DNA of 64,000 nucleotides from Methanofervidicoccus abyssi (GTDB lineage Archaea; AGJL01; Methanococci; Methanococcales; Methanococcaceae), in assembly GCF_004310395.1 (NCBI RefSeq), contig NZ_BFAX01000004.1, positions 1 to 64,000 of the forward strand. Direction: 5' to 3'. The notes beneath the pieces were generated by a model, which saw nothing but the letters and a program-made list of their open reading frames with translations, was not told the DNA's origin and did no database searches. The position numbers and the translations under genes are program-made. This document shows, piece by piece, positions 16,382-33,589 of the stretch (position 1 is its first letter; each line of letters opens with the position of its first letter).

Positions 16382-16734
16382 ATCATCACCGTAAGTAATT
16401 GTTATGGTGAAGTAAAATATTATATATTATAAGGTCATATGAAAGTACTATCTCTTCTGTTGCTAAGAGTTTTTTCCTAAAAAGGATAGATACATAATCT
16501 TATTTATTAAAGAATTTATATTATAAGTATTTTTTTAAATATACGCATTATTTTTTATTATAGTTTTATTTTTATAAAAGTTTCTGTTGAAATACAGATC
16601 TTTTACTATTTCTTTTAAATGAGATTTTTAATGGAAACAGGTTTATAATATTTTTTAAATAATTTAATAAATTTTTTATTAAAATTTTTAATATAATTAA
16701 TAATCGCTAAAAATTAAATTTTATAGGTGATAAT
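16382..16734. other. Divergent AT-rich spacer
   Basis: This spacer separates selD (minus) from the signal peptidase (plus) and must hold both promoters. It is very AT-rich, with many TATA-like stretches (for example near 16420-16432 and 16500-16530), so single boxes cannot be assigned with confidence. I see no ORF or RNA gene. Confidence 0.4.
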
Positions 16735-17337
16735 ATTTCCAAAAAATCTTTAGAAAAAAAGAAAGTTTTAAAATGGCTAAAATCTAAAAAAAATATTTTT
16801 GAATGGATACTATTCTTAGTAATTCTCTTCGTTGTTTGGAGTCATGTTAACGTGGTGGTATCTAACAGTATGTATCCTGTCATGAAGAGAGGAGATTTAG
16901 TAGTTGTGGAGAACGCACCTTGGGAGTTTAATCCTAAAGATGTAAAAGTTGGAGATATCGTAGTGTATAATGCCCACTGGCCTGTTGTTGGTAACAGGGT
17001 AGTCTGTATCCTTCATATAGATAACAAAACCTTAGCAATATACAGTGGAGATAAAACTATGCCTGTAATCCATAGGGTGATAGAAAAGATCGATATTGAC
17101 GGTAGTTGTTATATAATTACAAAGGGAGATAACAATCCCATATATGATCCAGAACTTATATCCTTAGATCAGATAAAACGGAGAGTAATAACAATTGATG
17201 GAAAACCTTTGGTAATTCCTTATTTAGGATTTATTTCCATTTACCTGAAAAAATATATATGGTTGTTTCTACTTTTATTGATATTATGGATTATCTACGA
17301 TTATATTAAAGATGGTAAAAATAAAAATAATAATTAA
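16735..17337 (+). CDS. Archaeal signal peptidase I (AUU start proposed)
   Basis: The catalytic domain is clear: Ser in VVSNSMYPVM, the His in VIHRVIEK, and the Asp in ITKGDNNPIYDPE, the Ser-His-Asp arrangement of archaeal type I signal peptidases; a C-terminal membrane span (YIWLFLLLLILWIIYDY) follows. The first standard start is GTG at 16852, which would delete the N-terminal membrane anchor. In the same frame upstream lies a charged stretch and a span (FEWILFLVILFVVWSHVNV), with no ATG, GTG or TTG. The codon ATT at 16735 has AGGTGATAAT immediately before it at exactly the usual spacing, so I propose it as start, giving 200 residues. The enzyme removes signal peptides from exported proteins such as the several secreted ones in this window. 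Confidence 0.85.
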   Translation: MSKKSLEKKKVLKWLKSKKNIFEWILFLVILFVVWSHVNVVVSNSMYPVMKRGDLVVVENAPWEFNPKDVKVGDIVVYNAHWPVVGNRVVCILHIDNKTLAIYSGDKTMPVIHRVIEKIDIDGSCYIITKGDNNPIYDPELISLDQIKRRVITIDGKPLVIPYLGFISIYLKKYIWLFLLLLILWIIYDYIKDGKNKNNN

Positions 17338-17710: not shown

Positions 17711-18544
17711 ATAGGGGGAAGAAAAAAATCCTTTGACAATAACCTAGAAGAGGAGATATACTTAGATAGAGAGTATCAGAAAGAGATAATAGAGAGGGAG
17801 AGGAAATTTTTAGAAGATTTAAAAACGGAAGATGGGGTATTTGATCGTAGGACTCTTTTAACACTTTACAGTTTACTCTGTGGGAAACACGTGGATAAAT
17901 ACGTAGGTATTATAAACTCTGGAAAGGAGTCTGCAGTTTTTTCTGCAGTTAAGGGAGATAAATACCTAGCTGTAAAGGTATACCGTGTTGCAACCTGTGA
18001 TTTTAAAACCATGTGGAAGTATATCCAGGGAGATCCAAGATTCCATCTAAGTAGGAGTTCTACAAGAAAGATCATACATACATGGGTTGAGAAGGAGTTT
18101 AGAAATCTGAAGAGAGCAAATAACTACGTTAATAGTCCAAAGGCTATACTTAGAAGGGAGAATGTACTTCTTATGGAGTTAATATGTGATGACAACGGAA
18201 TCCCATCTCCAAGGTTGAAGGATGCCCCAGATGTAGATTATGAAAAGATGTATCATAGAATAAGAAAGGATATGAAGATTTTATATAACGATGCCGAGTT
18301 GGTTCATGGAGACCTTTCCGAGTACAACATACTTGTTAAAGATGGAGAACCGTACTATATAGATTTTTCCCAGGGAGTTGTTGTTAGACATCCTCTATCT
18401 AAACCTCTGCTTATAAGGGACGTTAAGAATATCTGCAATTTCTTTAAAAAGAAAGGAATAGAATGTAACTATAAGGAGTTATATGAGTATATTACAGGGG
18501 AAGAAATTAATCCGGTAGATGAAGAGCTGGCAGAAGAGTATTAA
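17711..18544 (+). CDS. RIO1-type serine/threonine protein kinase (AUA start proposed)
   Basis: The kinase core is intact: NSGKESAVFSAV (nucleotide-binding loop), LAVKVYRV (Lys), LVHGDLSEYNIL (catalytic loop) and YIDFSQGVV (metal-binding Asp). RIO1 acts in small-subunit ribosome maturation. The first standard start, GTG at 17891, would remove the N-terminal region, yet the same frame is open back to the aIF1A stop and encodes about 60 more residues (DNNLEEEIYLDREYQKEI and on). No ATG, GTG or TTG lies there. ATA at 17711 follows GGGGGATAGT with the same spacing seen for ATG in neighbours, giving 277 residues. I propose AUA initiation; the kinase identity does not depend on it. Confidence 0.85.
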   Translation: MGGRKKSFDNNLEEEIYLDREYQKEIIERERKFLEDLKTEDGVFDRRTLLTLYSLLCGKHVDKYVGIINSGKESAVFSAVKGDKYLAVKVYRVATCDFKTMWKYIQGDPRFHLSRSSTRKIIHTWVEKEFRNLKRANNYVNSPKAILRRENVLLMELICDDNGIPSPRLKDAPDVDYEKMYHRIRKDMKILYNDAELVHGDLSEYNILVKDGEPYYIDFSQGVVVRHPLSKPLLIRDVKNICNFFKKKGIECNYKELYEYITGEEINPVDEELAEEY

Positions 18545-31907: not shown

Positions 31908-32437
31908 CTTATCACCATATATAACAATTATATTAGTACTGTTTTGAATTATTCAGTTTATTTGAAGTTCTATATATATACTTTTCGGTATTTATATTTA
32001 AAAGATTAAAAACAGTTAAAAGATAATATCCCCTTAATAACAATAGATTTTGATATCATAAGCACTCTAACCACTTCTGAATAAACAAAAATAATTATAT
32101 GGGAGTTTTTTTCCAGAAGTTCTATTACTTTCTCCTTATACGAAAAAATACAAAGAAGTAAAACCTTATCATTACTTTCCTTAACAACAATCTAGTTAGG
32201 GGCTTGAAGTATTTTTTTTCTTTTGTATCTACCTAGATTCAGGAGAGTGATTTTGCAATATTAGGAGTCTCCTATTTAAGAGAAAATGGAGTTTATACGT
32301 TTTAGAACCATACAAAATTTATATATTGTAAATATTAATAACCCTCTAAGAATAATATTAATATATTTGTTATTAGTCCCATTTTATAAAAGAATAGTAA
32401 TTTTATACTAATCTCTAAATTATCTTTAGGTGATAAT
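31908..32437. other. Intergenic, possible degraded ORF
   Basis: On the minus strand a frame without a start codon, from roughly 32190 down to 32010, reads IVVKESNDKVLLLCIFSYKE and continues through KVIELLEKNSHIIIFVYSE to a stop. It has protein-like composition but no family is recognised, and a second frame is also open over part of it. It may be gene debris. TATA-like sequence at 32315-32330 may serve the methyltransferase gene. No other feature is seen. Confidence 0.25.
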
Positions 32438-33589
32438 ATTTCAAATATAAAAATTAGCATAGATAAGAGGGCCTATAACTCAATATTGAATTTTTCAAGA
32501 ATAATTTACAAAAATGCCATTATAAACAAGGAGGACATACCTGAGAAAGATGATATAGTGTATCTATATTACAAAAATAAATTTATAGCACAGGCCCTAT
32601 ATGTTAAAGGGAGTCCCTGTATAAAGATATTAACATTAAAAAAAGAGGATATTGATAGAGATTTCTTCTACAGGAGGATAAAGAGAGCTATCGAATATAG
32701 GGAGAAATTTCTTGGTTTTAAAAACACCTACAGGATGATATATGCAGAAGGCGACTATCTACCATGTATAGTGCTAGACAGATACAACAATATAGGTTCT
32801 ATGCAGATCTCTTCTAAGGTTATGGAAAAGTATGCACCAGTAATATACGAATGTGTGGAGGAACTTGCAGGTATCACTACCTTATATATCCAAGGAGCTA
32901 AGAAGGGAGACAGAATAAAACCGAGAATACTTGGGGATAGAAATAACGTAGAGACTATTATAGAAGAAGGAAGGGGAAGGTTCAAGGTAAATGTTAGTGG
33001 GCATAAAACTGGTTTCTTTTTGGATCAAAGAGATAACAGAATAGATATCGAGAAATATGTTAGAGAGGGAGATAGAGTATTGGACGTATGTTGCTATACA
33101 GGTGGCTTTGCTGTGCACTGTGGAGTAATGGGTGCAGAAGTGTGGGGGATAGATATATCGAAGAAAGCCTTGGAAGTTGCAGAGGAAAATATGGAGTTAA
33201 ACGATATCAAGGACTATCATCTTATACATGGGAATGCCTTTGATATAATGAGGGAGTTAATAGAAGATGGAGAATCTTTTGACATTGTAATACTAGATCC
33301 CCCATCTTTTACAAAAACCTCCAAAGATGTTAAAAATGCTTTAAGGGCCTACAACACCCTTAACTACTTAGCCTTAAAACTCTGTAGAAGGATGTTAGTT
33401 ACATGTTCCTGCTCCCACCACATAGACAGGGAGACTTTTAAGAATACAGTGGTATCATCTTCCCTAAGGGCTAAAAGAGAGATTAAGCAGATCGGAGGTT
33501 ATAGAACTCAATCTCCAGATCATGTAATTACTATGGCCAATAAAAATTTGGAGTATCTAAAATGTCTATTTTTTGCTGTAGAATGTTAA
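32438..33589 (+). CDS. PUA-domain rRNA cytosine-C5 methyltransferase, RlmI/COG1092 type (AUU start proposed)
   Basis: About 383 residues. An N-terminal PUA-like RNA-binding region is followed by a class I SAM methyltransferase domain: VSGHKTGFFLDQRDNR, then VLDVCCYTGGFAVHCGVMGA (SAM motif I), then FDIVILDPPSFTKT (motif IV) and VTCSCSHHIDRETF. These are signatures of the RlmI family, which methylates cytosine in 23S rRNA. The first standard start is a TTG at 32486 with no ribosome-binding site and it would cut the PUA region. ATT at 32438, right after AGGTGATAAT, gives (M)SNIKISIDKRAYNSILNF, as expected for this family. The context is the same as for the signal peptidase gene. Confidence 0.87.
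   Translation: MSNIKISIDKRAYNSILNFSRIIYKNAIINKEDIPEKDDIVYLYYKNKFIAQALYVKGSPCIKILTLKKEDIDRDFFYRRIKRAIEYREKFLGFKNTYRMIYAEGDYLPCIVLDRYNNIGSMQISSKVMEKYAPVIYECVEELAGITTLYIQGAKKGDRIKPRILGDRNNVETIIEEGRGRFKVNVSGHKTGFFLDQRDNRIDIEKYVREGDRVLDVCCYTGGFAVHCGVMGAEVWGIDISKKALEVAEENMELNDIKDYHLIHGNAFDIMRELIEDGESFDIVILDPPSFTKTSKDVKNALRAYNTLNYLALKLCRRMLVTCSCSHHIDRETFKNTVVSSSLRAKREIKQIGGYRTQSPDHVITMANKNLEYLKCLFFAVEC

Follow-up and report, generated by a model that had tools for sequence, protein, structure and literature searches.

An apparent AUU start codon in an archaeal rRNA methyltransferase gene and its probable counterparts in other genes of the Methanococcales

Introduction

Where does translation begin in a gene that carries a strong ribosome-binding site and conserved N-terminal sequence, and no ATG, GTG or TTG at the expected place? 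The question is raised by an rRNA methyltransferase gene of Methanofervidicoccus abyssi, in the 64-kb window analysed here (positions 1 to 64,000 of contig NZ_BFAX01000004.1), for which an earlier note had proposed an AUU start in a context shared with a signal peptidase gene. In bacteria, AUU-type starts have been described in individual genes. For archaea, a review of initiation gives AUG, GUG and UUG only (PMC7531240), and we found no account in the open-access papers searched of AUU, AUC or AUA (hereafter AUH) starts in the Methanococcales.

The analysis presented below indicates that an archaeal lineage appears to use AUU, AUC and AUA in at least a dozen genes, offering a natural system for testing start-codon judgement by archaeal ribosomes. 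A culturable and genetically tractable relative exists in Methanococcus maripaludis.

Results

The 5′ end of the methyltransferase gene features the following elements:

32428..32434, + strand: Shine-Dalgarno (SD) sequence AGGTGAT of the rRNA methyltransferase gene, read directly; GGTGR is found in every readable subclade ortholog
32438..32440, + strand: putative AUU start codon, 4 nt past GGTGA; aligned ATT/ATA in 6 other species, with stops just upstream in 4
32438..33589, + strand: PUA and SAM-dependent methyltransferase (RlmI-like), 383 aa from the ATT; PF17785 PUA_3 at residues 7-59 plus methyltransferase domains
32486..32488, + strand: TTG, codon 17, rejected as start; its use would remove the conserved IDKRAY motif and the first part of the PUA domain

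From the upstream in-frame stop of this frame to the TTG at 32486 there is no ATG, GTG or TTG, so that the gene indeed lacks the standard start that the earlier note had found missing, and the ATT at 32438 is in frame with the open reading frame. The TTG encodes residue 17 (numbered from the ATT) and thus falls inside the Pfam PUA_3 match, confirming that initiation there would cut the domain; it is also positioned 3′ of the IDKRAY motif, which lies between the two codons and is present in all readable Methanococcales orthologs, and on both grounds we discard it as the start. Gene finders limited to ATG, GTG and TTG would nonetheless pick TTG 32486, and it could be argued that the true start is canonical, whether there or upstream, and the ATT incidental; however, the loss of IDKRAY and of part of the PUA domain, together with the losses that the same assumption would impose on the other AUH genes described below, renders this reading highly improbable. 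As to the protein's identity, its nearest NCBIfam models are 23S rRNA m5C methyltransferases, with scores below cut-off for all of them: the cut-off of the 23S rRNA C1962 methyltransferase model (RlmI, NF053718) is not reached (232 vs. 575 bits) and only the domain plan is held in common.

Direct support for the ATT comes from its orthologs. The close subclade comprises nine species (this genome, G000, and G001, G002, G004, G005, G006, G007, G008 and G010; the relatives with a name are MAGs and single-cell genomes of Methanothermococcus), in seven of which the start position was read. G002 and G007 carry AGGTGATAAT-ATT, identical to G000, while AGGTGATAAC is followed by ATT in G001 and G004 and by ATA in G005 and G010; all six aligned codons stand behind AGGTGATAAY, and G001, G004, G005 and G010 have in-frame stops shortly upstream. 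G008 features AGGTGATAACATT at the corresponding position, and more distant orthologs have TTG (G003, G009, G011) or ATG (G012, G014, G016) a few codons 5′ of IDKRAY. A sequencing or assembly error of an ATG is excluded by the relatives' ATT/ATA at the same position with stop codons just upstream; since ATT, ATC or ATA also stands in assemblies made independently from other species, some of them complete genomes in a single contig, such an error is the least credible of the explanations considered here.

The second gene of the proposed pair encodes a signal peptidase:

16725..16731, + strand: SD sequence AGGTGAT of the signal peptidase gene, read directly
16735..16737, + strand: putative AUU start of the signal peptidase I gene, 4 nt past GGTGA; AUU/AUC/AUA aligned with it across the Methanococcaceae and in most of the Methanocaldococcaceae read
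16735..17337, + strand: archaeal signal peptidase I, 200 aa; TIGR02228 at 90.2 bits (cut-off 51.85)

The two genes do share the 15 bases that the earlier note reported at their starts, AGGTGATAATATTTC being found at 16725-16739 and 32428-32442, both on the + strand, where shuffled sequence leads one to expect 0 copies; no third copy exists in the genome (1,308,147 bases searched). The proposal that this 15-mer marks an AUU mode of initiation holds in that further genes share the mode, and fails in that the 15-mer itself is not a special signal: it is merely the consensus of SD, spacer and start, and the pattern obeyed more generally is (A)GGTGR-N4-AUH, where the third base may be U, C or A. 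Genome-wide searches returned the 15-mer only twice but uncovered other conserved genes that follow this wider pattern, so that the refuting condition set by the earlier note does not hold.

The signal peptidase start has the wider distribution of the two. At the aligned position AUH is found in all readable Methanococcaceae orthologs except the ambiguous G011, as illustrated by TAA-GGTGGTATA-ATC in G012, GGTGGTAAT-ATT in G009, GGTGGTACC-ATC in G013 and GGTGAGATT-ATA in G016, and among Methanocaldococcaceae it is ATT in G022, G026, G029, G030 and G035, ATC in G023 and ATG in G025. Judging from these alignments, the signal peptidase appears to have retained an AUH start across nearly the whole order Methanococcales.

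Several observations on these genes can be added. The G025 signal peptidase (L081), the sole ATG among the Methanocaldococcaceae read, has the context GGTTATACTATG, without a GGTGR SD, so that AUG gain is accompanied by SD weakening. Those of genus g3 (L077-L079; G020, G017, G021) carry at the N-terminus, ahead of the membrane segment, a long extension rich in Asn and Lys, and apparently also have an ATT start, behind an atypical leader; they were excluded from AUH counts. In the window, the open reading frame at 17849-18544 (+) has its first canonical start, GTG 17891, within a longer open frame without a clear SD, and its start is uncertain.

A scan for SD-led open reading frames without a usable canonical start, run over 457 kb of this genome, returned almost exclusively AUH genes, nearly all at spacing 4, and a whole-genome motif search with open-reading-frame checks added further candidates. 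With the methyltransferase and the signal peptidase counted in, the genome appears to have at least 13 AUH-started genes. The others, named from sequence without family searches, are:

G000:C4:235433 (L050): triosephosphate isomerase (TIM), ATC
C4:348792 (L056): PurO-like, ATT
C4:215425 (L049): agmatinase-like, ATC
L145: HisF, ATC
L152: MTA-phosphorylase-like protein, ATA
radical-SAM protein, ATC
ATP-grasp protein, ATC
two lipoproteins, ATT
membrane protein, ATT
149-aa protein, ATT

Subclade orthologs confirm an AUH start in eight of these candidates; less well supported are the second lipoprotein, the membrane protein and the 149-aa protein. Initiation at the next canonical codon would shorten the products by 16-139 residues and remove, among other parts, the N-terminus of TIM and most of a signal peptide, and in nearly all AUH genes there is no canonical codon upstream before a stop, which again counts against canonical starts. 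A reversed-pattern control indicated that raw motif matches alone are mostly chance, and the counted sites were therefore restricted to those with open-reading-frame or ortholog support. AGGTGATAMY, the strongest context, has nine AUH and nine AUG raw matches in this genome, three of the nine AUH ones without a long open reading frame.

To place these genes in a broader frame, the codon exactly 4 nt past GGTGR was tallied, counting no further than the first canonical start, over the same 457 kb (35% of the genome): ATG 52, GTG 10, TTG 6, ATT 5, ATC 4, other 2. Among the non-start triplets of this genome AUH accounts for about 10%, so that its share of 9 of the 11 non-canonical codons corresponds to P about 4e-8; in G004 the share is 5 of 7 (P about 2e-4). 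No AUH was found at spacings 1-3 or 5-9 in the census, and the four at spacing 10 (with seven other codons) are taken as ordinary third codons, since the frame is identical to that of spacing 4, two codons downstream. GUG and UUG, too, are nearly all at spacing 4; AUG is found mainly there but occurs at 6-7 as well. AUH sites thus resemble the ordinary SD-led GUG and UUG sites of Methanococcales, with which they share the GGTGR SD and the limitation to one optimal spacing of strictly 4 nt, but differ in a third base mismatched to CAU; in this context AUH is about as frequent as UUG. The base at -1 is a pyrimidine in all nine AUH sites vs. 40 of 68 canonical ones. Across the genomes sampled, all within the order Methanococcales, the frequency of AUH starts is several times higher in the subclade, where 400-460 kb contain 9 and 5, than in G011, G012 and G023 (1-2 each).

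Conservation was assessed in a table, compiled by hand, of 78 ortholog AUH starts from ten gene families. The third base is U in 30, C in 31 and A in 17, GGTGR-N4 precedes 75 of the 78, and the -1 base is U in 46, C in 24, A in 7 and G in 1. For these families no AUG occurs inside the close subclade, two ATG orthologs stand outside it (TIM in G016, signal peptidase in G025), and parsimony on a methyltransferase tree requires at least 20 third-base changes, of which one is to G (TIM of G016). None of 38 start pairs between G000 and G004 switches between AUG and AUH. In species beyond the subclade these genes frequently have UUG or GUG starts instead, in keeping with a requirement for low output. 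We estimate P for AUG avoidance at about 0.003 to 0.07, varying with the mutation model, so that it is only moderately significant if third-base G is assumed rare. Conservation in several species, and the roughly eleven additional genes that share these features, lend strong support to the earlier note's view of a real initiation mode rather than an error.

Discussion

We put at roughly 0.85 the probability that the methyltransferase gene starts at AUU 32438 as one of at least about a dozen unrelated AUH-started genes with selected weak starts. Such starts most likely depend, as the sequence comparisons suggest, on a strong, optimally spaced SD and often on U at -1. Among the elements of SD-led archaeal initiation, the SD at fixed spacing and the initiator tRNA(CAU) are present, and AUG, GUG or UUG is absent. 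The only initiator tRNA found (L310) is of the ordinary type, with A1-U72, GGG/CCC in the anticodon stem, CAU and A37, ruling out an altered initiator tRNA. Changes of aIF1 specific to the subclade are likewise ruled out, the factor being nearly invariant, and its own gene starts with ATG, which removes infC-like self-control via an AUH start. Nor is there a known structured RNA near the start, a tRNA being the sole Rfam match in the window.

In the mechanism we propose, the 30S subunit meets a strong SD, GGTGR in sequence and in most cases AGGTGAT, exactly 4 nt before AUH, presumably by pairing with the 3′ end of 16S rRNA, to which the SD is complementary. Met-tRNAi could then pair with the A and U of AUH, and the third-base mismatch would be tolerated because the SD sets the codon in the P site, often aided by pairing of the -1 U with A37. 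Selection would retain AUH and avoid AUG because small amounts of these proteins suffice, making the start codon a built-in throttle, possibly an aIF1-sensitive one. In a bacterial in vitro system weak third-base pairs are tolerated at low yield and disfavoured by IF3 (PMC10158994), and the extended codon-anticodon interaction of -1 U with A37 has been described for chloroplast initiation (Esposito et al. 2001, as cited in PMC4587860). The likeness to chloroplasts lies in the mostly U (pyrimidine) at -1 of AUH and in the initiator's A37, from which a role in archaea may be surmised. Against a throttle, triosephosphate isomerase is not obviously a low-abundance protein.

A change in the subclade's initiation machinery could instead have made AUH tolerable, with starts then drifting without selection for weakness, as the several-fold higher frequency in the subclade might suggest. 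This we regard as distinctly unlikely: sites remain AUH across species despite third-base turnover and are never AUG within the subclade; between G000 and G004 no start moves from one class to another; aIF1 and the initiator tRNA are unchanged; and the AUH of TIM and of the signal peptidase is older than the subclade.

Somewhat less improbable, though still doubtful, is that the selected weak starts form a regulated set, which abundant aIF1 would repress and its scarcity release, by analogy with IF3 acting on infC and sigR. In vitro, aIF1 lowers the stability of initiation complexes formed on mRNA with a non-AUG start (PMC6237735, PMC8211752), bacterial IF3 represses the GTC-started sigR and the ATT/ATC-started infC (PMC5472188), and weak starts are conserved here among unrelated genes; but aIF1 itself is ATG-started, and the gene functions (enzymes, signal peptidase, lipoproteins) have no obvious common theme. 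The earlier note called the mode perhaps regulated; constant low output accounts for the data equally well. A tentative extension, to which we give little weight, is that Methanococcales possess an AUH-started translational set, anchored by the order-wide AUH signal peptidase, in which initiation fidelity, through the level of aIF1, aIF2 or Met-tRNAi, would govern the output of all members together; metabolism and secretion would then be under the archaeal equivalent of IF3 control.

Comparison with bacterial infC (IF3) is instructive in both directions. In both systems AUH is conserved between species, AUG being avoided here as there, and AUG would be expected to raise output; infC, however, is autoregulated and encodes a fidelity factor, in contrast to the at least about a dozen unrelated genes and the ATG-started aIF1 described here. 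Streptomyces sigR (GTC, IF3-repressed) similarly illustrates how a non-canonical start limits protein output and leads gene finders to misannotate, but it is a single, experimentally tested bacterial gene, whereas the many archaeal AUH genes described here are predicted from sequence. Gene finders restricted to ATG, GTG and TTG would truncate or miss signal peptides, TIM, PurO and HisF. In G004, two additional AUH candidates, at C1:208439(+) (L224) and 353374(-) (L231), both have GGTGR-N4; one is glycosyltransferase-like with ATA, and the other gene has ATT.
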